Source: Verrucomicrobiota bacterium
Lineage (GTDB): Bacteria; Verrucomicrobiota; Verrucomicrobiia; Opitutales; UBA953
Assembly (NCBI GenBank): GCA_026397955.1
Contig: JAPLTV010000028.1
Location: forward strand, 1-62,107
DNA length: 62,107 nucleotides
Direction: 5' to 3'
Positions within the stretch are counted from its first letter, which is position 1. Each line of letters begins with the position of its first letter. A program made the position numbers and the translations under genes. Of the stretch, positions 49,077 through 57,960 are shown piece after piece. Below the pieces are notes generated by a model. The model saw only the letters and a list, made by a program, of their open reading frames with translations. It made no database searches and was not told the DNA's origin.

Positions 49077-51272
49077 ATGCGCCTCAGACTTTTCCTGCTG
49101 CCGATCCTTCTGGCAGCGCTGGCCTCCGCCCAGACCGCCGGCTTCACCACCACGCAGTCGATGCAGAACGAGACGCGCGCCACCGCGGCGCTCCTCGAGA
49201 AGCTCCACATCAGCAAGAAGGACATGGGCTCGGTCGACATGAACTCCGTCGTGAAGACCTACTGCGAAAACCTCGACGGCGCGAAGATGTACTTCACGGC
49301 CGAAGAGGTAGATGAGTTCGTCAACCGCTACGGCAAGACCCTCGATCTCTACCTACAGCGCGGCAACCTGACCCCGGCCTTCGAGATCTACTCCCTCTTC
49401 AAGAAGAAGGTCAACGAGCGCACGGTCTCCAACCTCGCCGCCCTCGACCAGCCGATTGACCTCACCCAGCCGGGCACCTTCCCGGTCGACCGCAAGAAGG
49501 CCGAGTGGCCCGCCAACCAAGAAGCCGCCGACGCCCTCTGGGCCCGCCGCCTCCGCCTCGACATGCTCTCGGAACTCCTCGGCGAAGACCGCACGGGCAG
49601 CACCAAGGCCCCCAAGGACCACACTCTGCCGGAGATCACCCCGGAGAAGACCAAGGAATCCGCGGCCCGCCTGAAGAAGCGTTACGACAAATCCCGCACC
49701 TATCTCAACTTCGACCAGAACGAGGTGGAAGAGATCTTCCTCAACTCCTACTCGAGCCAGTACGACCCGCACTCGACCTTCTTCTCCCAGCAGTCACTGG
49801 AGGAATTCGAGATTGCGATGCGCAACTCGCTCGTCGGCATCGGCGCCACCCTTTCCGACGAAGACGGCTACTGCGTGATCAAGGACATCCTCCCCGGCGG
49901 ACCGCTCGACCTCTCCCATCAGGCCAAGTCCGGAGACAAGATCATCTCCGTCGGCCAAGGTACTGCCGGCGAGATGGAAGACATCGTCGGCATGCGCCTC
50001 TCGAAGGCCATCAGCCGCATCCGCGGCAAGCAGGGCTCCTCGGTCCGCCTGCTCGTCGACATGGCCGGCGGCGGCCGCAAGACAATCACGCTCAAGCGCG
50101 ACCAGATCAAGCTCGTCGGCCAGATGGCCTCAGCCAAGGCCTTCGAAGTGCCCAGCGGCAACGGCACCGTGCTGCTCGGCGTCATCGACCTCCCTTCGTT
50201 CTACGGCAAGAATTCCGACGGCTCCGGCTCCAGCCCCTCGGCTGATATCGAGCAACTCATCAACAAGCTCAAGGCGATGGGCATGAAGGCCCTCATCATG
50301 GATCTCCGCAAGAACGGCGGCGGCCTCCTGACCGAGGCGGTCGACATCTCCGGCCTCTTCATCCCGAAAGGCTCCGTCCTCCAGGTCCGCGACAGCCAAG
50401 GCCGCTCTGAAGATTACCGCGACGAAGACGAGAAGGTGGCCTGGGCCGGCCCGCTGATCGTGCTTACGTCTAAGCTCTCCGCCTCCGCCTCCGAGATCTT
50501 CGCCGGCGCGATGCATGACCACCGCCGCGCCATCGTGGTCGGCGATACGACCACGCACGGCAAAGGCTCGGTCCAGAACATTATCGAGCTGAGCCGCTTT
50601 GATAAGAACCTTAAGTCCGCGGTGAAGGTCACCATCCAGAAGTGGTACGCCCCCTCCGGCTCCTCAATCCAGCTCAAGGGCGTCCCGGCCGACATCGTGG
50701 TGCCGTCCGTCTACTCGGTGCTGCCGGTCGCCGAGTCCGATCTCGACCGCCCCCTGCCCTGGGATTCCGTCACCCCCACGCTCACCAAGGCCGACGAAGG
50801 CGAGTGGCTCAAGGCCAAGATCTCCGACGGCCTGATCGCGCAACTCTCCGCCGGCTCCGCCCGCCGCCAGTCCGAACTCCCCGAATTCCTCACGCTCTCC
50901 CGCACGATCGATTGGACGAAGAGCCGCCAGGTCCGCAAGGACGTGTCGCTCTCGCTCGACCAGCGCAGCAGCGAGCGCAAGGACGACCTGGAATTCCGTG
51001 AGCAGATCCGCCGCGAACTTGCCGATTACGCGAAGAAGGCCTTCAAGGTCAGCGACGTGAAACTGGACGCTGCCATCGAACAGGAGAAGAAGGAAGGCCC
51101 TGGCTCCGCCGCGAAGAGCAAGAAGGCCAGCCGCATGCGCGACCCCCTCGAAGACGATGATTGGCCGGAGTACGACATCCAGCTCCAGGAAGCGGTGCGC
51201 ATCGCGACCGACTGGACCGGCCTACTCCCAGGTGCATCGGTTGCCGCCGTCGCCGAGACGAAGAAGAAGTAA
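49077..51272 (+). CDS. Exported S41-family (Prc-like) tail-specific protease
   Basis: The 731-residue protein has a signal peptide (MRLRLFLLPILLAALASAQ), a helical N-terminal region, a PDZ domain (VGIGATLSDEDGYCVIKDIL, ~257-276) and the S41 core. The nucleophile segment SASASEIFAG is near residue 470 and the general-base lysine is near 496 (HGKGSVQ). The C-terminal helical domain matches the Prc branch. It should trim or degrade periplasmic proteins by their C-termini. It lies 20 bp after the rhomboid gene, and a repeat and terminator follow. Confidence 0.93.
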   Translation: MRLRLFLLPILLAALASAQTAGFTTTQSMQNETRATAALLEKLHISKKDMGSVDMNSVVKTYCENLDGAKMYFTAEEVDEFVNRYGKTLDLYLQRGNLTPAFEIYSLFKKKVNERTVSNLAALDQPIDLTQPGTFPVDRKKAEWPANQEAADALWARRLRLDMLSELLGEDRTGSTKAPKDHTLPEITPEKTKESAARLKKRYDKSRTYLNFDQNEVEEIFLNSYSSQYDPHSTFFSQQSLEEFEIAMRNSLVGIGATLSDEDGYCVIKDILPGGPLDLSHQAKSGDKIISVGQGTAGEMEDIVGMRLSKAISRIRGKQGSSVRLLVDMAGGGRKTITLKRDQIKLVGQMASAKAFEVPSGNGTVLLGVIDLPSFYGKNSDGSGSSPSADIEQLINKLKAMGMKALIMDLRKNGGGLLTEAVDISGLFIPKGSVLQVRDSQGRSEDYRDEDEKVAWAGPLIVLTSKLSASASEIFAGAMHDHRRAIVVGDTTTHGKGSVQNIIELSRFDKNLKSAVKVTIQKWYAPSGSSIQLKGVPADIVVPSVYSVLPVAESDLDRPLPWDSVTPTLTKADEGEWLKAKISDGLIAQLSAGSARRQSELPEFLTLSRTIDWTKSRQVRKDVSLSLDQRSSERKDDLEFREQIRRELADYAKKAFKVSDVKLDAAIEQEKKEGPGSAAKSKKASRMRDPLEDDDWPEYDIQLQEAVRIATDWTGLLPGASVAAVAETKKK

Positions 51273-51281
51273 GCCTGCGGC

Positions 51282-51316
51282 GGGGATCCGCTGGCATGGT
51301 GAACTGCTGCGAAGCA
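51282..51316 (+). repeat. 35-bp 3'-end repeat, copy 1
   Basis: It starts 10 bp after the S41 protease stop codon and is directly followed by the terminator at 51322. It reads GGGGATCCGCTGGC then ATGGTGAACTGCTGCGAAG. Near-identical copies lie after two minus-strand genes (52940-52974 and 55363-55397), always in the sense of the gene before it. Confidence 0.88.
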
Positions 51317-51321
51317 AATAG

Positions 51322-51348
51322 AGGCCGCCCACCCAGGCGGCCTTTTTG
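51322..51348 (+). terminator. Rho-independent terminator of the clpP-rhomboid-S41 genes
   Basis: Stem AGGCCGCC / GGCGGCCT with a six-base loop is followed by TTTTTG. It comes 50 bp after the protease stop and right after the 35-bp repeat. Confidence 0.88.
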
Positions 51349-51378
51349 TTGCCCTCGTTCGCCGTATGGTGAACGCAA

Positions 51379-51443
51379 GGTAGGGGCGAGGCTACGCCGC
51401 GCCCGTTCGCATCAATAGGGCATGACGTAGTCCTGCCCCTACC
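51379..51443 (+). repeat. GGTAGGG/CCCTACC-bounded element, short form
   Basis: The 65-bp element has perfect 9-bp inverted ends GGTAGGGGC / GCCCCTACC. Just inside the left end is a 9-bp stem with one mismatch (GGGCGAGGC / GCCGCGCCC). The internal CGTTCGC is shared with the long copies. It looks like an internally deleted version of the 124-bp element at 52787. Confidence 0.8.
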
Positions 51444-51471
51444 ATCGGCCACCATGCGGCGGCCGCCATGA

Positions 51472-51494
51472 GGTAGGGGCACGATTCATCGTGC
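51472..51494 (+). repeat. GGTAGGG half-element with perfect hairpin
   Basis: GGTAGGG is followed by a perfect 7-bp hairpin, GCACGAT / ATCGTGC, with a two-base loop. The right-hand CCCTACC end is missing. With the end of the previous element it forms an outward-facing inverted repeat. Confidence 0.7.
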
Positions 51495-51511
51495 ACTCCC
51501 ATCCGGCGGCC

Positions 51512-51547
51512 TGCTTCGCAGCAGTTCCCCCATGCAAGCAGACCCCC
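51512..51547 (-). repeat. Orphan copy of the 35-bp 3'-end repeat
   Basis: It matches the other copies over TGCTTCGCAGCAGTTC and GCAGACCCCC (plus-strand reading), with small changes in the middle. No minus-strand gene ends just before it, unlike the other copies. It may mark a lost gene or a copy inserted on its own. Confidence 0.75.
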
Positions 51548-51599
51548 ATGGCATGCTGTTTGATTTGCCGACCTCCTGCCCTGCCGACAACCTGACGCC

Positions 51600-52748
51600 A
51601 TGCTCTCCCCCGAAGCACTGACCTATGGCACCCTCCTGGTGACGGGCTTCCTGACCCTCCGCCGCTCGCGTCGCGCCGGCCTTACCCTGCGTCGCCAACA
51701 CGGCCTCATCGACGGCCAGCCGGTCCAGCTCCACACGCTCACGAACGCCCGCGGGATGGAAATCTCGGTCAGCGAGTTCGGCGCCACGCTCACGTCCATC
51801 CGCATCCCTGATGCCCACGGCCACCTCGGCGAAATCACCCTCGGCCTCCGCTCGCTCGAGGACTATGTCGCCGGGAATCCCTTCCTCGGCAGCACCGTCG
51901 GCCGTTACGCCAACCGCCTCGCGAACGGTCAGCTGACCGTCGACGGCCGCACCATTGCCCTCGCGCAGAACAACAACGGCAACCACCTCCACGGCGGCCT
52001 CCGCGGCTTCGATAAGCGCGTCTGGAAATCCGAAGCGATCCGCACCGCCGACGCATCCGCGGTCCGCCTGACCTACGTCAGCCCCGATGGCGAAGAAGGC
52101 TACCCGGGCGCGCTCAGCGTGACGGTCACGTACACCCTGCCCGACGCCTCCGACGAGCTGAGCATCGACTTCGCGGCGACGACCGACGCCCCCACGGCCT
52201 GCAATCTGACGAACCACGTCTTCTTCAATCTCGCGGGCCAAGGCAGCATCCTCGACCACCGCGTGACGCTGCGTTCCGACCGGATTGTACCGGTGACGGC
52301 CGCACTTATCCCGACCGGCGAGTTCATGGACGTCACGAACACGCCGTTCGACTTCCGCCGCCCGCACGCGATCGGCGAACGCATCGGCGCCCCGCACGAC
52401 CAGCTCCGTCGCGGCCGCGGCTACGACCACTGCTACGACCTCGGCACGGACAAGTCCCTTAAGTCCGCCGCGTACGTCACCGAAGAATCCTCGGGCCGCA
52501 CGCTCGAAGTCCTCACCGACGCCCCCGGCCTCCAGCTCTACACCGGCAACTTCCTCACCGGCACCGTGCAAGGCCGCTGGCCAAAGCCCTTCGCCTTCCG
52601 CCAAGGCTTCTGCCTCGAGCCTGGGCTCTTCCCTGACTCTCCGAACCAGCCCGCGTTCCATCGCCTCGGCTACCCCAGCGGCATCCTGCGCCCCGGCGAA
52701 CAGTATTCCCAAAAGCTCGTCTTCCGGTTCGGGGTTGTCCGCGGATAA
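51600..52748 (+). CDS. galM: Aldose 1-epimerase
   Basis: This enzyme interconverts alpha and beta anomers of hexoses. The 382-residue protein has the family arginine in STVGRYANRLANGQ, His in NNGNHLHGGLRGFDKRVW, the catalytic His in NLTNHVFFNLAG and the catalytic Glu in GFCLEPGLFPDSPNQPAF. The first ~25 residues are a hydrophobic/basic segment (TYGTLLVTGFLTLRRSRRAG) that could be a weak membrane anchor; a shorter start is possible. It is convergent with the symporter gene, which supports a role in sugar uptake and use. A shrunken 35-bp repeat follows its stop. Confidence 0.93.
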   Translation: MLSPEALTYGTLLVTGFLTLRRSRRAGLTLRRQHGLIDGQPVQLHTLTNARGMEISVSEFGATLTSIRIPDAHGHLGEITLGLRSLEDYVAGNPFLGSTVGRYANRLANGQLTVDGRTIALAQNNNGNHLHGGLRGFDKRVWKSEAIRTADASAVRLTYVSPDGEEGYPGALSVTVTYTLPDASDELSIDFAATTDAPTACNLTNHVFFNLAGQGSILDHRVTLRSDRIVPVTAALIPTGEFMDVTNTPFDFRRPHAIGERIGAPHDQLRRGRGYDHCYDLGTDKSLKSAAYVTEESSGRTLEVLTDAPGLQLYTGNFLTGTVQGRWPKPFAFRQGFCLEPGLFPDSPNQPAFHRLGYPSGILRPGEQYSQKLVFRFGVVRG

Positions 52749-52759
52749 CCGCGGACAAC

Positions 52760-52776
52760 GGGATCCGCTGCGAAGG
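52760..52776 (+). repeat. Deleted remnant of the 35-bp 3'-end repeat
   Basis: GGGATCCGCTGCGAAGG equals the two ends of copy 1 joined, with the middle 15 or 16 bases lost between short CTG repeats. It lies 12 bp after the galM stop, in the same gene-relative direction as the full copies. Confidence 0.6.
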
Positions 52777-52786
52777 AATGTCTTGA

Positions 52787-52910
52787 GGTAGGGGCGCGAC
52801 TGCGTCGCGTCCGTTCGCGGACGAACATTGAATCCGATTGAACTGGGCTAAGCCCCGACGACTCCCGTCCTCCGGCTTCGAACGGCGGTGATGGCAATCA
52901 CCGCCCTACC
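52787..52910 (+). repeat. GGTAGGG/CCCTACC-bounded element, long form A
   Basis: The 124-bp element is bounded by GGTAGGG and CCCTACC. Hairpin A (GGCGCGAC / GTCGCGTC) lies at the left end and hairpin B (GGCGGTGA / TCACCGCC) at the right. The middle has CGTCCGTTCGCGGACG, a 6-bp stem with a TTCG loop that competes with hairpin A. It sits between the convergent galM and symporter genes. Confidence 0.88.
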
Positions 52911-52920
52911 CGATGCATCA

Positions 52921-52940
52921 AGGCCGCCGCAGGGCGACCT
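52921..52940 (-). terminator. Terminator-like hairpin after the symporter gene
   Basis: On the minus strand the 8-bp stem AGGTCGCC / GGCGGCCT has a four-base loop but is followed by TTGATG instead of a T-run. The same place after two other genes holds good terminators, so this may be a decayed one. Confidence 0.5.
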
Positions 52941-52974
52941 GTTTCGCAGCAGTTCACCATGCCAGCAGACCCCC
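52940..52974 (-). repeat. 35-bp 3'-end repeat, copy 2
   Basis: It is about 23 bp after the symporter stop codon and reads, in the gene's sense, GGGGGTCTGCTGGC then ATGGTGAACTGCTGCGAAA. It differs from copy 1 at only a few positions. Confidence 0.88.
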
Positions 52975-52997
52975 ACGCGCCGGCGTAACGCCGGCGC

Positions 52998-54950
52998 TTA
53001 TGCCCGCTTCTCTGCCGCCGTACTGTCCGCCCAGAGCTGCTGAGTCGTCTTGAGGAGGACGTAGCCGCTCACGAGCGTGACGGCGGTGAGCACCCAGGCC
53101 ATGGTGAGGCGCTTAGGGTCGCCGGAAGCGTAGAGGAAGTTGCCGATGGCGAAGAGCGAACCCCAGATGAGCGCGCAGCCGGAGATCCAGCCAACGAAGG
53201 CCGAGCCGATGCGATTCTCTTGGGAGATCTCGGCGTCGCTGATGCCGGCTTCGGCGCGGATGTCGGTCCAGCCCGGGCCCGCGGGCTTCACCTTCTGACA
53301 GAAGGCGATGAGCGTCGCACGATCCGTCTGCGGGCCGACATACGCGGTGATGAGCCAGGATAGCGTGGTCAAGGCGACTTGAATGATCGTCGTGGTCGCG
53401 AAGTCTGCATGAGGCATGAAGTACGGCACGGCCACCGCGGTCACGAGCGACATCACCATGGCGACAACTTCACACCAGGCCGAGATACGCCACCAGAACC
53501 AGCGGGCGAGATAGAGCAGGCCGGTGCCGGCACCGATGGAGAGCAGGACCTGGAAGGCCTGCTGCGCGGATTTCATATATAAGCTGAGCACAGCCGCGAC
53601 GACGTAGAGCAACACGGTCGAGAGACGGCCGACGTTCACATAGTGGGTCTCGCTGGCGTCCTTCTTGATGAAGCGACGATAGAAGTCGTGCACGAGATAC
53701 GAAGAGCCCCAGTTGAGGTGCGTCAGGATGGTCGAAGAATTGGCGGCGATGAGGCCGCCGATCATCAGGCCCACGAAGCCGACAGGGAGGAACATGAGCA
53801 TCGCCGGGAAAGCGGAGTCATGGCCGATGAGCGTCGAATCCGCGTTCGGGAAGGCCGACTTGATCGCCGCGAGGTCAGGATAGACGATGATGGAACACAG
53901 CGCGGTGATAATCCAAGGCCACGGACGCAGCACGTAGTGGGCGATGTTGAAGAAAAGTGTGCCACCGAGGGAATCCTTCTCGGACTTCGAGGCCAGCATG
54001 CGCTGGGCGATATAGGAACCACCGCCAGGCTCGGCGCCAGGATACCAGTTGGCCCACCAGCTGATGGCAATCGGCAGGATGAAGATCATCAGCGCCAGGT
54101 CCGACATCGTGAAGTTCGGCAGCATATCCAAAATCGGCTGACCGGTGCCATTAATCACCGACATCACTGGCTGGCCGTCTTCCATGACTGGAATTCCGTC
54201 TTTAACCTGGGCGACCCCATCGACCATCTTCTGAACTTTAGGTAGAATGACCTGCTGGGTCGAAAGTTTGGCGACCAAGGCCTTCAGTCCCGCCCAACCA
54301 CCCGCACCCTTGCCGACAAGACGCTCGCCGACCTCGACGAGCGAGAACCAGGCCGCGGCGAAGACGGCGGTCATCTTGATGAAGAACTGCACCATATCGA
54401 TGACGAGGACACCCCAGAGGCCGGAGTGCGCAGCGAAGACGACGTTCAGGATCCCGCAGACGACGATGGTCTGCCAGGCGGGCATCCCGAAGAGGATGTT
54501 GGCGATCTTACAAGCGGCCAACGTGACCATACCCATGATGAAGCAGTTGAAGAACAGCCCAAGGTAGAGGGCACGGAAGCCGCGGACGACCGAGGCGGCG
54601 GTGCCAGAGTAGCGATGCTCATAGAACTCGAGGTCGGTCATGACGCCCGAGCGGCGCCAGAGACGGGCGAAGAAGAAGACCGTGGCCACGCCGGTGAGCA
54701 CGAAGGCCCACCACTGCCAGTTGCCGGCGACGCCGTACTTACGGACCTGCTCGGTCACCCAGTTCGGGGTGTCGGACGAGAACGTCGTCGCGACCATCGA
54801 GAGGCCGGCGAGCCACCACGGCACCGAGCGACCGGAGGCGAAGAACTCGGCGGTGCTGCCGCTGGAGCGCTTGGCGAGGAAGAGCGCGGGTACAAAGCAG
54901 ATCAGGATCGAAGCTGCGACGATGACCCAATCAATCCAGGTAATATGCAT
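52998..54950 (-). CDS. Sodium:solute symporter family transporter
   Basis: SSS transporters take up sugars, amino acids or other solutes with Na+. The 650-residue protein has about 13-14 hydrophobic helices, with ASGRSVPWWLAGLSMVATTF, the family signature near the N-terminus, and ISWWANWYPGAEPGGGSYIAQ further on. A hydrophilic insert of ~60 residues (KLSTQQVILPKVQKMVDG onward, ~230-290) separates helices in the middle. Sugar is the likely substrate because galM and a dehydrogenase flank it; this is inference. A long hairpin lies directly before its start codon. Confidence 0.9.
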   Translation of the reverse strand: MHITWIDWVIVAASILICFVPALFLAKRSSGSTAEFFASGRSVPWWLAGLSMVATTFSSDTPNWVTEQVRKYGVAGNWQWWAFVLTGVATVFFFARLWRRSGVMTDLEFYEHRYSGTAASVVRGFRALYLGLFFNCFIMGMVTLAACKIANILFGMPAWQTIVVCGILNVVFAAHSGLWGVLVIDMVQFFIKMTAVFAAAWFSLVEVGERLVGKGAGGWAGLKALVAKLSTQQVILPKVQKMVDGVAQVKDGIPVMEDGQPVMSVINGTGQPILDMLPNFTMSDLALMIFILPIAISWWANWYPGAEPGGGSYIAQRMLASKSEKDSLGGTLFFNIAHYVLRPWPWIITALCSIIVYPDLAAIKSAFPNADSTLIGHDSAFPAMLMFLPVGFVGLMIGGLIAANSSTILTHLNWGSSYLVHDFYRRFIKKDASETHYVNVGRLSTVLLYVVAAVLSLYMKSAQQAFQVLLSIGAGTGLLYLARWFWWRISAWCEVVAMVMSLVTAVAVPYFMPHADFATTTIIQVALTTLSWLITAYVGPQTDRATLIAFCQKVKPAGPGWTDIRAEAGISDAEISQENRIGSAFVGWISGCALIWGSLFAIGNFLYASGDPKRLTMAWVLTAVTLVSGYVLLKTTQQLWADSTAAEKRA

Positions 54951-54951
54951 G

Positions 54952-54993
54952 GCAGGGTAAGGGGTTACCTATTTCTGTTTCCCCCTACCCTGC
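54952..54993 (-). promoter_or_regulatory. Start-codon-proximal leader hairpin of the symporter gene
   Basis: On the mRNA strand GCAGGGTAGGGGG pairs with CCCCTTACCCTGC over 13 bp with one G-U pair and a 16-base loop. The 3' arm ends one base before ATG 54950, so the stem would cover the ribosome landing site. It could act as a translational control element. The arm carries the GGTAGGG motif of the nearby repeats. Confidence 0.7.
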
Positions 54994-55047
54994 GTGGCAA
55001 CCGCGTTCCCTTTACTGATATGACCACTTCGGAGCATTAGTGCGCGA

Positions 55048-55172
55048 GGTAGGGACGTGATTGCCATCACGTCCGTTCGCGGACGGACATTGGACCACGT
55101 CGACCTAGGCTAAGACCCGACGACTCCCCGCCTCCGGCTGCGAACGGCGGCGATGGCAATCACCGCCCTACC
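55048..55172 (+). repeat. GGTAGGG/CCCTACC-bounded element, long form B
   Basis: This 125-bp element aligns with long form A end to end. Hairpin A is GACGTGAT / ATCACGTC with a perfect stem, hairpin B GGCGGCGA / TCACCGCC with one wobble or mismatch. The central CGTCCGTTCGCGGACG and CGACTCCC are kept. Arms of hairpin A differ from form A on both sides, keeping complementarity. Confidence 0.88.
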
Positions 55173-55218
55173 CAAGCCCCAGCCAATCATCCGGTCTCTG
55201 GTTTCCCTTTGAGCTTAA

Positions 55219-55299
55219 CCCGCTGTCTCGAGGTAGGGCCGAGCATCCCTGCTCGGCCGCGGCCGGCCAAGGATGGTTGGCCCTACCCAAGACAGCGGG
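55219..55299 (+). repeat. Compact element inside a perfect 10-bp inverted repeat
   Basis: Outer arms CCCGCTGTCT (55219-55228) and AGACAGCGGG (55290-55299) are perfectly complementary. They flank a 56-bp GGTAGGG...CCCTACC element (55232-55287). Inside are hairpins GCCGAGCA / TGCTCGGC and GGCCAA / TTGGCC. Together the arms could form a cruciform with a stem near 20 bp. Confidence 0.82.
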
Positions 55300-55322
55300 C
55301 GCGACGCCGTCACGTCCCTACC
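55299..55322 (-). repeat. Partial GGTAGGG element in reverse orientation
   Basis: On the minus strand GGTAGGG is followed by the arms ACGTGAC / GTCGCGC, a stem with one wobble and one mismatch. It directly follows the dehydrogenase terminator in transcription order. Confidence 0.55.
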
Positions 55323-55323
55323 C

Positions 55324-55352
55324 AAACAAAAAGGGCGCCTTGCGGCGCCCTT
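55324..55352 (-). terminator. Rho-independent terminator of the cytochrome-fused dehydrogenase gene
   Basis: On the minus strand the stem AAGGGCGCC / GGCGCCCTT closes a GCAA loop and is followed by TTTGTTT. It lies about 65 bp after the gene's stop codon, just after the 35-bp repeat. Confidence 0.88.
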
Positions 55353-55362
55353 CTCTTCCTTC

Positions 55363-55397
55363 TGCTTCGCAGCAGTTCACCATGCCAGCAGATCCCC
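55363..55397 (-). repeat. 35-bp 3'-end repeat, copy 3
   Basis: In the sense of the dehydrogenase gene it reads GGGGATCTGCTGGC then ATGGTGAACTGCTGCGAAG, one or two changes from copy 1. It starts 19 bp after the stop codon at 55417. Confidence 0.88.
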
Positions 55398-55416
55398 GCG
55401 CGACCACGGGTCGCGC

Positions 55417-57960
55417 TTACTTCTTTTGTAGCTCCGACTCGGTCCAGGCGTCGGTCCGGCCCTTGGTCTCGGCGCGGATCTTCTGGACGAGGTCGAGGGG
55501 CACGGGCGCGGCCTCGTGGTCCCACTCGCGGCGGATATAGGTCAGGACGCCGGCGATCTGCTCGTCGGTCAAGAACCCGGCGGCAGGCATGTCGTAACTG
55601 TAAGCCACGCCCTTCACTTTGATAGGGCCACGCAGGCCGTGCATGACGACCTTGATGATGCGTTCGGGGTCGCCGTTGACCCATTCGGAATCAGCGAGCG
55701 GCGGCGCCAGGCCGTCGAGGCCCTTACCGGTTGGCTGGTGGCACGCGGCGCACAAGCCCGCGAAGGTCTGCTTACCGGAATCGAAGAGGATCTGCTGCTC
55801 GTTGGTCAGCGCCTTGACGACAGGCACGACGACGCCGGGCTTGCCGGGCCAGACGACGGTGCTCTTGAACCAAGCGAGGGCCTTCACCATCGCGGTGTCC
55901 TTGCTCTTGGCCATCTTGGCCAGCGAAGCCGGCTCGGCGGTGAGCTTTACGGGGCGCTTAGCGGTGACGGTCGGGTGCGTGGCAAGCGAGCCGAGCAAGG
56001 TGACCTGCTGCGACTTGAGTGGTAACGCAGCGATGATTGCGAGGGCCTTCTCGACCTGGGCGGGCTTACGCGTCGAGAACACGCAGCGAAGCAAGGCGGC
56101 GGGCAAGGTCTTGGCATAATCCGCCGGCTTCTTCATCACGACCTCGAAGAGGCCGACCTCGCGGCCTTCGAGTCCGCTGATGAACGCATCCTGGATGAAG
56201 GCAACTTCACCCGCGCGAGTGATGAGCGCGGCGCCGGCAAGGTCGGCCGCGAGGGACTTGGCTTCACCGATCGAGAGCGCGAGCTGCTGCTGGACTTCGG
56301 TGACGGCTTCGGTGGCGGCGAGTTCGGTCCAGCGGGCGACGATCGCATCGCGGTCCGGCGAAGCCATCAGGGCCTCGGAGACACGGATGGCGGCGGCACG
56401 CACGCGCGGGTCATCATGGGCCATGCCGGCGAGGACGGCCTCGGCCTTCACGGCACCGCGGCCTTCGAGCGTCCAGAGGGCATGCACGCGTCCCATCGGC
56501 GAGGCGGAATCCTTGGCGAGGGCGACGAGAGCGGTGTCGATCGTCGCGTCCGGGGCGGCCTCCACGAGCAGGCGCTGGGCGGTCTCGCGGCGCCAGGAAT
56601 TACCGCTGGCGAGTTCGGCGACGAGTTCGGCCGGGGTCATCGCGGAAAGCTTCTTAGCCGGCGCGACAGCGGCGCCTTCGGGGGCGATACGCCAGACGCG
56701 TCCGAGCGCGAGGGGCTTGTCGAGGCCACGCTTCACGATCTGCTCGCGCAGGTAGGTGGTCAGCGAGATGCGGTGCTGGATGATGCCGCGGTAGAGATCG
56801 ATGACGTAGAGCGCGCCGTCGGGGCCCGTGAGCAGGTTGACCGGACGGAAGCGCTCGTCGGTCGAAGCCAGGAACTCCGTCTGGTCGTAGTAAGGCGTGC
56901 CCACGAGGGCGCCGCCTTCGGACTTCACCACGTTGCGCTTAATGAGATTACCGGCGGGCTCGCACACGAACGCGTTGCCGTAGGCATCAGCTGGGAAGAG
57001 GTCGGCGCGGTAAATCCACGGCGCGCAGGCGGCCGTGAACTCCTTGAGCTTGAACTCGCGGAGCATCTCGGGGCGATAGCCGCGGTTGATACCGGGGTTG
57101 ACGCGGATCGGCCAGACCAGCTGTTCCTTCGCGACCTTCCAGTTGAGACCCGTGGTACGACCGAGGTTCGGGTTGCGGTTGAGATAGGACGACGGGATGA
57201 CGTCGGCGCGCATCTGGTCGCTGTTGCTGTTATGGTAGAGGTGGCCGAAGTCGTCCTGCGAGAGGCCCCACTGCCCGCGGAAGTTACTCAGCCCGCGGAG
57301 CCAGCGGCCGTCCTTGAACTTGAAGCGGGCCGTGTAGGCGCCGACGTAGAGCCAGTTGTCATGCCCCCAGAGCATCGCGTTCGGGGCACGCTCCGGATTG
57401 GCGAGCTGCGGGCGGGAAGGATCGACGCGTACGCCGAAGTCCGTCGCCACCTCGATCTTCTCGTCGGCCTTGCCGTCGCCGTTCGTGTCGCGGCAGAACC
57501 AGAGATGGGGCGGAGCGCCGACCAGTACGCCATCGCGATGGAGGGCGAGAGCGCGCGGCATCACGACCTTATCAAGGAAGACCGTCGACGTCTCGTAGAC
57601 GCCGTCGCCGTCCTTATCCTCGAGGACGACCACGCGGCCGTGCGGCTGGTCTTCCGTCGTGCCATCGAGGTCGGGCATATAGCCCTGCATCTCCACGACC
57701 CAGAGCCGGCCATCCGGGCCGAACTGCGCCGCCACCGGATCGCCGATCTGCGGATCGCTGGCCACGAGCGAGATCTGGTAGCCCTTCGCGACCTGGAACG
57801 TCTTCAGCTGCTCCTGCGGCGTGTGCGCCGGCGAAGGCGGGATCAGGTTGTCGGGCACCAGCGGCACCATCGGCTCGCCGGCCTTGTCGCCGATCTGGCC
57901 GAACGCGGCGGCCGCCAGGCAAAGGGCGGACAGGGTCAGGGTGCGGCGGGGCATGCGCAT
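55417..57960 (-). CDS. PVC-type beta-propeller dehydrogenase with C-terminal cytochrome c domain
   Basis: The 847-residue exported protein has a signal peptide (RTLTLSALCLAAAAFGQ). A propeller domain runs to ~430, with ISLVASDPQIGDPVAAQFGP, RLWVVEMQGYMPD and LLTGPDGALYVIDLYRG. A HEAT-like helical region covers ~440-700 and a cytochrome c domain ends the protein (CAACH at 737-741, ligand methionine near YDMPA ~791). This layout is common in Planctomycetes and Verrucomicrobia. Substrates are probably sugars or sugar alcohols, by family. It differs from the 39890-41371 protein in having its own heme. It is transcribed in the same direction as the symporter. Confidence 0.9.
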   Translation of the reverse strand: MRMPRRTLTLSALCLAAAAFGQIGDKAGEPMVPLVPDNLIPPSPAHTPQEQLKTFQVAKGYQISLVASDPQIGDPVAAQFGPDGRLWVVEMQGYMPDLDGTTEDQPHGRVVVLEDKDGDGVYETSTVFLDKVVMPRALALHRDGVLVGAPPHLWFCRDTNGDGKADEKIEVATDFGVRVDPSRPQLANPERAPNAMLWGHDNWLYVGAYTARFKFKDGRWLRGLSNFRGQWGLSQDDFGHLYHNSNSDQMRADVIPSSYLNRNPNLGRTTGLNWKVAKEQLVWPIRVNPGINRGYRPEMLREFKLKEFTAACAPWIYRADLFPADAYGNAFVCEPAGNLIKRNVVKSEGGALVGTPYYDQTEFLASTDERFRPVNLLTGPDGALYVIDLYRGIIQHRISLTTYLREQIVKRGLDKPLALGRVWRIAPEGAAVAPAKKLSAMTPAELVAELASGNSWRRETAQRLLVEAAPDATIDTALVALAKDSASPMGRVHALWTLEGRGAVKAEAVLAGMAHDDPRVRAAAIRVSEALMASPDRDAIVARWTELAATEAVTEVQQQLALSIGEAKSLAADLAGAALITRAGEVAFIQDAFISGLEGREVGLFEVVMKKPADYAKTLPAALLRCVFSTRKPAQVEKALAIIAALPLKSQQVTLLGSLATHPTVTAKRPVKLTAEPASLAKMAKSKDTAMVKALAWFKSTVVWPGKPGVVVPVVKALTNEQQILFDSGKQTFAGLCAACHQPTGKGLDGLAPPLADSEWVNGDPERIIKVVMHGLRGPIKVKGVAYSYDMPAAGFLTDEQIAGVLTYIRREWDHEAAPVPLDLVQKIRAETKGRTDAWTESELQKK

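Follow-up and report, generated by a model that had tools for sequence, protein, structure and literature searches.

Gene-matched hairpins with a shared G-rich foot at gene 3' ends in a genus of Verrucomicrobiota, and their possible origin by template switching

The 35-bp sequence repeated behind several genes of a Verrucomicrobiota contig (JAPLTV010000028.1; the window, i.e. the whole stretch of DNA analysed, comprises 62,107 nt) belongs, as its tail, to a larger unit found where genes end, so that a first-pass annotation which had noticed the repeat is partly confirmed, its observation being real but incomplete. The stem of a hairpin between the stop codon and the tail is private to each gene, while the GGGG foot is common to the copies. 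The reading proposed here, to which about an even chance is given, is that of a two-part unit whose 3' arm has been copied from the gene end by template switching of DNA polymerase. Part (a) would be a hairpin with almost perfect pairing, placed at the stop codon and often having the last codons and the stop as its 5' arm, and part (b) the GGGG with a degenerate G-rich octamer repeat directly past the hairpin.

In the window the three near-identical 35-bp copies lie in the places and in the sense previously described (pattern matches at 51283-51316 on the plus strand and at 52940-52973 and 55363-55396 on the minus strand, with 0, 2 and 0 mismatches; 100 shuffles gave 0 matches), and the shortened copy claimed after galM was read from the sequence; the galM of relatives carries a longer tail at the same place (Table 1). 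The stretch of "10-23 bp" that separates the repeat from the stop codon is no spacer, being a complete hairpin in the case of the symporter and the dehydrogenase. At galM the 5' arm is coding and the stop codon TAA stands inside the loop, as read from the sequence. The terminator-like hairpin that had been described after the repeat is found, with its T-run, past the S41 protease and the dehydrogenase; the symporter hairpin has no T-run. No Rfam family exceeded its gathering score at positions 51000-55600 of the window, where two sub-threshold microRNA look-alikes fell on a REP.

Table 1. Genes, hairpins, tails and GTAG-REP pairs at positions 51273-55416 of the window and in the flanks
Feature	Position	Strand	Basis and remarks
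S41 tail-specific protease gene	49077..51272	+	PF03572 + PF17804, gene call; stop codon 51270-51272
35-bp tail copy 1 (GGGG + octamer-repeat core)	51282..51316	+	Pattern match; hairpin before tail weak, score 2.8
Separate intrinsic-terminator-like hairpin GGCCGCC/GGCGGCC then TTTTTGTT	51323..51350	+	Read from sequence; terminator scan reports here just an overlapping opposite-strand hairpin
GTAG-REP pair GGTAGGG ... CCCTACC, independent insertion	51379..51443	.	Repeat and motif searches
galM (aldose 1-epimerase)	51600..52748	+	PF01263, NF008277
galM stop-codon hairpin GTTGTCCGCGG-ATAA-CCGCGGACAAC	52734..52759	+	11-bp; score 10.6, labelled L015
Shortened tail remnant GGGATCCGCTGCGAAGGAA after galM	52760..52778	+	Read from sequence
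GTAG-REP pair after galM	52787..52910	.	Repeat and motif searches
35-bp tail copy 2	52940..52974	-	Pattern match
Hairpin GCGCCGGCG-TTA-CGCCGGCGC, directly past symporter stop (52998-53000)	52977..52997	-	Score 8.7
Sodium:solute symporter gene	52998..54950	-	PF00474
GTAG-REP pair, copy of post-galM pair	55048..55172	.	Repeat family D1, 86% identical
GTAG-REP pair	55232..55287	.	Repeat and motif searches
Separate intrinsic-terminator-like hairpin past dehydrogenase tail	55328..55352	-	Minus-strand T-run read from sequence; terminator scan puts it on the plus strand
35-bp tail copy 3	55363..55397	-	Pattern match
Hairpin GCGCGACC-CGT-GGTCGCGC, directly past dehydrogenase stop (55417-55419)	55398..55416	-	Score 7.7; listed by terminator scan too
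Dehydrogenase = PVC-type heme-binding protein, C-terminal cytochrome c domain	55417..57960	-	TIGR02604, PF23500, PF00034

The tails, in which GGGG is joined to degenerate octamers rich in G, fall into several families, among them the 35-bp type, the CACGTGGGCAAGG type and the GAGTAT type; the 35-bp sequence represents a single frozen form of the octamer repeat. Allowing 3 mismatches at most, 36 copies of the 26-nt tail core are spread over the genome (none in the control). Of the 55 genomes searched in the genus 26 possess the core, and it was found in none of the 24 searched in four other genera. Among 167 tabulated copies, which are not independent of each other any more than the orthologues are, a sense gene end lies at most 45 nt upstream in 94 (random noncoding positions 8.4%) and an antisense gene end at most 45 nt downstream in 6 (random noncoding positions 9.3%); in the genome of the window itself 23 of 31 copies have the sense placement. 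The first-pass annotation had staked its reading on a non-random place and direction of the genome copies, and over the 167 copies the sense gene-end placement held; a simple mobile repeat with random placement is ruled out by this bias. The remaining 73 copies are located elsewhere, and in a separate tabulation 52 of 77 copies off sense gene ends had no hairpin of score 7.

The usual order at a gene end is stop codon, near-perfect hairpin, GGGG and tail, with the hairpin beginning at the stop or taking the last codons as its 5' arm. Stems of score at least 5 accompany 78 of 97 gene-end tails; 41 overlap the stop codon or the CDS and 37 follow the stop, 33 of the latter beginning within 1 nt of it. 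A score of at least 7 is reached in 52.6% of the 97 tail ends versus 9.6% of 218 ends with neither tail nor REP. Across 607 gene ends, many of which come from tail-bearing loci, 154 score at least 6.5 compared with 6 when the downstream DNA is shuffled, and in 95 of the 154 GGGG stands 0-3 nt past the hairpin (background 5.5%). Hairpin and tail can be separate, because the other 59, which include REPs, terminators and other low-complexity tails, have no GGGG.

The gene specificity of the arms was visible in a swap test on 16 orthologue groups, the genes being picked from tail-bearing ends of genome G000. A score of at least 6 was obtained with the gene's own downstream DNA in 54 of 99 GGGG ends, with that of an orthologue in 31% of 584 and with that of another gene in 3.9% of 1188 combinations; own pairing exceeded the orthologue mean in 68 of 97 ends (P about 7e-7). 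When G000 was left out, the same score was reached by 45 of 84 ends with GGGG versus 9 of 109 without it. In four of the 16 groups (L028a, L028b, S41, DH) a CDS-overlapping stem of score 6 was found in 0 of 21 GGGG ends, and the hairpin, if any, is located after the stop.

At one gene end different species possess unrelated hairpins. For 34 ends in 9 groups, compared in register with the nearest hairpin-free orthologue, identity was 268/360 in the coding 5' arm and 98/359 in the 3' arm, with 602/736 in the upstream CDS; hairpin-free orthologues share the coding arm and bear no trace of the 3' arm. If shifts were allowed, the 3' arm matched the orthologue's downstream DNA at 0.612 and another gene's at 0.617, none reaching 0.9. 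The absence of the 3' arm could reflect loss; and as conservation of the 5' arm falls short of that in the preceding CDS, copying into the CDS may have occurred as well. In genome G045, where the CDS of the same gene has diverged, the 3' arm of one hairpin (L008) fits codons found in other species. No event with a before and an after state was seen between close strains.

Three-base loops are of the GNA type in 21 of 52 cases, every one closed by C-G, compared with 9 of 214 in coding DNA, and GNA loops were also found in 4 of 15 gene-end hairpins without GGGG. The missing 3' arm in hairpin-free orthologues and the GNA triloops fit an origin at the DNA level. Folding back or switching template, DNA polymerase would write the gene end in reverse complement to give the 3' arm; very stable GNA mini-hairpins of the GCGAAGC type may nucleate the event. 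The 3' arm may sometimes be re-copied later and would therefore be able to follow synonymous changes. Events templated on the gene end would survive selection best, which would explain the placement and direction of the unit; if the mRNA is affected at all, for instance through blocking of 3' exonucleases, this would be a secondary matter.

In yeast genes, template switching is reported to homogenise the arms of inverted repeats and to invert their spacers (PMC8604942). As far as that account of quasipalindrome mutation describes them, those repeats have perfect arms derived from the sequence of one arm and three-base, invertible spacers such as gaa/ttc, as the present hairpins may have; unlike them, the present hairpins are concentrated at stop codons, are joined to a GGGG tail and exhibit spacer inversion in two gene-matched cases only. 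Altogether inversion was noticed in 8 of 119 same-arm pairs, six of them with REP-type stems, few enough that chance may explain it. A private stem on a shared foot connects template switching as a mutational process with REP-like repeats and with the 3' ends of mRNA, and orthologues with, without and with decayed hairpins form a natural series for the origin of gene-end hairpins. In the open-licence PMC literature, so far as it was accessible, no account turned up of stop-codon hairpins that match their gene and carry such tails.

The main rival, which is doubtful, regards the hairpin as a working 3'-UTR structure (for mRNA stability or as a 3'-end boundary) with pairing under selection, and the tail as a binding site for protein or RNA. 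It can be said that the 3'-UTR module suggested in the first-pass annotation is partly supported, as a 3'-UTR structure fits, without the terminator and GGTAGGG element as fixed parts. The sense orientation at gene ends, the near-perfect stems (30 mismatches across 87 unique hairpins) and the synonymous codon changes matched by the 3' arm, two in the L007 gene and one in the L019 gene, all agree with selected pairing; G-T mismatches outnumber A-C by 11 to 6, the direction expected of sense-RNA pairing, at a non-significant P of 0.33. However, the loop bias follows a stability rule which the literature, in its accessible part, gives for DNA, orthologues without GGGG are mostly hairpin-free, and the hairpins at one gene differ between species. 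Moreover, with fixed geometry carried between orthologues, 101 changed pairs are broken versus 29 kept (48 versus 8 distinct columns), an excess that arises in part because the hairpins compared at one gene are not the same, and that weighs on the copying reading as well. Selection on RNA is not the only possible source of covariation in a 3' UTR.

Only tentatively can a dedicated process of the genus be put forward, one that would write the reverse complement of the last codons past the stop and add a short-period G-rich tail, so giving a private hairpin and a shared foot, with the tail family replaceable and the principle kept.

Group IIC introns and elements of the IS200/IS605 type are known for hairpin-directed insertion. 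It is improbable that here, too, a pre-existing gene-end hairpin served as the landing site of a mobile tail. Gene-matched hairpins with other tails or no GGGG (the L017 gene in G015, the L007 gene in G027) and hairpin-free tail copies elsewhere are in its favour; nevertheless, stop-codon hairpins of score at least 7 are rare in the stretches taken from tail-core-free genomes (2/53 in G011, 0/27 in G005, 1/9 in G044), and the nearest hairpin-free orthologues lack any trace of the 3' arm.

In bacterial extragenic palindromes the stem sequence is usually common to the family. The GGTAGGG elements, whose GGTAGGG motif is enriched in the window (15 occurrences versus a shuffle mean of 3.62), carry a GTAG tag beside a palindrome and are ordinary GTAG REPs with a RAYT, whose gene (L164:1414-1941, minus) has GGTAGGG pairs on both sides and is one of three Y1_Tnp matches in G000 (Y1_Tnp over cut-off; NF047646 at 77.5 bits, just below the cut-off of 80). 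They are independent insertions rather than the fixed part of a cassette they were taken for, because they also occur at gene ends without a tail (galM, seven relatives). GTAG-tagged REPs with RAYT are reported to be abundant in Opitutus terrae (PMC3733652), and the likeness to the REPs of that account, within what it covers, extends to GTAG with a palindrome, inverted pairs, a REP-flanked RAYT and TAG as stop codon; the 35-bp tail, unlike those REPs, lacks the GTAG tag, and its stems vary in sequence.

That a RAYT/HUH transposase, reading the hairpin and GGGG foot, moves the gene-end unit in the manner of a REP is highly improbable. Its layout of hairpin and conserved foot is that of a REP, the genome possesses RAYT genes and GTAG REPs, and 105 unique palindromes precede GGGG away from gene ends; against this, the tail has neither GTAG nor CGTC tag and the stem sequence is not common to copies. 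No association that would make a RAYT the driver of the tail was seen: Y1_Tnp was found in 13 of the 26 genomes of the genus with the tail and in 15 of the 29 without it, by hand count in incomplete drafts where misses are likely. Fold-back copying and low-complexity tails bear a general likeness to reverse-transcriptase products, yet an origin from mRNA 3' ends by a DGR, a group II intron or RT-based repair is hardly credible and was rejected at PF00078 sensitivity, as among the 55 genomes of the genus a single one, without the tail core, carries this domain and G000 does not; the idea would require an RT that PF00078 fails to detect.

G-rich heptamer repeats near stop codons have been described in Xanthomonas and Nostoc (PMC4692102). 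In the terms of that source the tail resembles them in that short units rich in G are repeated in tandem, in sense and within 50 bp of stop codons; it differs in being a degenerate octamer, and may differ in being joined to gene-matched hairpins.

Intrinsic terminators share the GC-rich hairpin close to the stop codon; here GGGG takes the place of the T-run, and some genes carry terminator-like hairpins further downstream. The terminator scan of the region adds no support, because its 3 sites compare with a shuffle mean of 2.8. Under a strict definition (perfect stem of at least 6, then TTTT), which weaker terminators would escape, terminators lie within 100 nt after 13 of the 97 gene-end tails. 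Of the four-part cassette once proposed, the 35-bp repeat near stop codons stands, and the terminator, this infrequent in the strict scan, and the GGTAGGG element, present at tail-free ends, drop out as fixed parts. Among the 154 hairpins of score at least 6.5 none has TTT within 7 nt past the arm; at least two of them (L192, L085) are terminators with the T-run inside the counted arm.

The 35-bp repeat, a tail of GGGG and a degenerate octamer core at the 3' ends of genes, tends to keep a fixed place and direction relative to stop codons, as the first-pass annotation had proposed: a sense gene end was found at most 45 nt upstream in 94/167 copies, against 8.4% of random noncoding positions taken on a random strand in the same loci. 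An antisense gene end lay within 45 nt downstream in 6 copies, a gene start was nearby in two further sets of 8 and 2, and 2 were inside called genes. Gene ends came from a purpose-written codon-usage gene caller inspected on the window. The tail matches in the window and in the fetched loci L001-L125 numbered 199 at ≤4 mismatches; 12 near an end were dropped, removal of identical sequences left 174 of the others, and the final table holds the 167 copies at ≤3 mismatches, with orthologous insertions in different species each counted separately. The sequence check returned the three copies and the galM remnant of the window at their annotated positions. In the source genome G000 (a draft of 2.45 Mb in 126 contigs) the 26-nt core occurs in 36 copies (≤3 mismatches) and its reversed control in 0; 23 of 31 tabulated copies lie at most 45 nt behind a sense gene end, and the other five of the 36 were outside the tabulated loci, near an end, or merged as duplicates. 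The core was present in 26/79 genomes of the family, all within one genus (26/55), and absent from the 24 genomes searched in four other genera. The genome collection gave 95 tail-bearing stretches, and among the 80 matches listed nearly all were Opitutae, Opitutus or Verrucomicrobia by title. The tail was also seen in a record titled Akkermansia muciniphila (L061), possibly a mislabelled MAG.

The short gap described earlier between stop codon and repeat is usually filled by a hairpin, which that description had missed. Among 97 gene-end tails the hairpin follows the stop codon in 37 (33 within 1 nt of it), overlaps the stop codon or the CDS in 41 and is weak in 19; examples are GTTGTCCGCGG-ATAA-CCGCGGACAAC at galM, ACGCGTCGGC-caagtaa-GCCGACGCGT in L060 and ACGAATGAGCGAGCGC-gca-GCGCTCGCTCATTCGT in L094. 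In 65/97 gene-end copies and 25/77 other copies a hairpin scoring ≥7 abuts the tail, as against <1% with shuffled DNA. By a second measure it stands at the stop in 52.6% of the 97 tail ends and in 9.6% of 218 ends that have neither tail nor REP; variant tails occur at several of the latter. Stretches from core-less genomes gave such hairpins at 2/53 (G011), 0/27 (G005) and 1/9 (G044) stops; some GGGG-type units are nevertheless present in G011, therefore the process is wider than its 35-bp version. In G052, also without the core, TACGTCGCGC-agtaag-GCGCGACGTA stands at a stop codon and is followed by GGGTTGTGGGTTGCGGGG-like repeats, which suggests the same principle with another tail. The genomes are drafts; an assembly artefact is argued against because several assemblies show hairpins at one gene.

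Different species carry different hairpins at one and the same gene end. Orthologues were taken from relatives for 15 gene ends of G000 and galM, all picked from its tail-bearing ends. At L008 the hairpin is CGCTGACCG/CGGTCAGCG in G000, AAATAACGC/GCGTTATTT in G027 and CTCATCGCCGC/GCGGCGATGAG in G028 and G034, and by eye there is none in G016, G012 and G030. G045 itself has the codons CTGATTGCCGC, but its 3' arm still matches CTCATCGCCGC as found in the codons of G028 and G034, and is likely a fossil copy. At L007 the codons have changed synonymously from cct to ccg and from cag to caa, and the 3' arm matches both changes. When downstream DNA was swapped between ends with GGGG, score 6 was reached by 54/99 ends with their own, by 31% of 584 swaps with an orthologue's and by 3.9% of 1188 with another gene's; minus G000 the values were 45/84, 32% of 450 and 3.3% of 1008, the own score exceeding the orthologue mean in 59/83. 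Ends lacking GGGG reached it from their own DNA in 9/109, and no such stem was found in the 21 ends checked of groups L028a, L028b, S41 and dehydrogenase. One hairpin geometry carried over to orthologues broke 101 pairs and kept 29. Aligned in register with their nearest hairpin-free orthologue, 34 ends from 9 groups were identical at 268/360 positions of the coding arm, 602/736 of the CDS before it and 98/359 of the 3' arm; with shifts allowed, the 3' arm fitted the orthologue's downstream DNA no better than another gene's (0.612 vs 0.617). Since the coding arm is mostly shared and the 3' arm is not, the 3' arm was either added to a gene end that already existed or has vanished tracelessly from the orthologues; gain is the simpler of the two.

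The loops bear on the level at which the hairpins arise. Three-base loops occur in 52/89 unique gene-end hairpins with GGGG, C-G closing 47/52, and GNA makes up 21 of the 52; its share is 31/73 where palindromes precede GGGG outside gene ends, 4/15 in gene-end hairpins without GGGG and 9/214 in coding DNA. PMC4686876 describes GNA loops on G-C stems as DNA mini-hairpins of extraordinary stability (GCGAAGC type). Hairpin pairs that share similar arms but differ in the loop numbered 119. The loop is inverted in 8 of these, of which six have REP-type stems and two are gene-matched, with GAA/TTC on C76/C101 of G000 and GCA/TGC in L095 and L098. Arm homogenisation with spacer inversion through template switching has been reported in yeast genes (PMC8604942). 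Stem mismatches (11 G-T, 6 A-C) gave no significant sign of sense-RNA selection. Template switching at the DNA level is therefore preferred, and the hairpins may possibly have a role in RNA as well. Contigs C76 and C101 of this one MAG, possibly from different strains, have near-identical gene ends (L025, L027) whose hairpins differ in a base change matched in both arms as well as in the inverted loop.

Downstream of GGGG the tail has a period of 8. At lags 8/16/24 the 35-bp type (60 copies, not independent) had autocorrelations of 0.36, 0.38 and 0.30, and 35 other tails had 0.43, 0.38 and 0.35; shuffled controls gave 0.28-0.29 and hairpin-free regions 0.30, 0.29 and 0.27. One way to read the 35-bp repeat is as a run of four octamers, GGGGAACT GCTGGCAT GGTGAACT GCTGCGAA, followed by GCA. 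The other tail families belong to a CACGTGGGCAAGGTGACA type or, where GGGG is lacking, to a heptamer type, GAGTATC. Heptamer-like GAGTATCGAGTATGGAGTAT tails adjoin a gene-matched hairpin, with no GGGG, at two gene ends (L094, L227). The terminator-like hairpin placed after the tail by the first-pass annotation is present behind the S41 protease and dehydrogenase genes of the window, but a strict scan found one at 13/97 gene-end tails.

Coordinates and loci of the features discussed
Feature	Genome	Locus or contig	Position	Strand
RAYT-like transposase gene	G000	L164 (C72)	1414-1941	minus
Sub-threshold Rfam matches on a REP pair	G000	window	55219-55299
galM 3' ends with GTAG REP	relatives	L130, L132, L134, L136, L139, L141, L142
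Gene end with GAGTATCGAGTATGGAGTAT tail		L094	2563
Gene end with GAGTATCGAGTATGGAGTAT tail		L227	450
Gene end with TACGTCGCGC/GCGCGACGTA hairpin	G052	L162	2787
Reverse transcriptase (PF00078)	G014	L296 (C112)

The GGTAGGG elements are GTAG REPs. G000 has a RAYT-like transposase gene (175 aa) with inverted GGTAGGG REP pairs on both sides; a reverse transcriptase was found in 1/55 genomes of the genus. At the galM 3' end the REP occupies the spot of hairpin and tail in other species, and the galM stop codon is the TAG of the element in G012, G004, G011, G030, G045, G002 and G050. In this the galM elements are like the GTAG REPs of PMC3733652, where TAG serving as stop codon is reported and O. 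terrae is named as rich in them. One REP pair of the window has sub-threshold Rfam microRNA matches, which are probably due to chance, arising from the palindrome.
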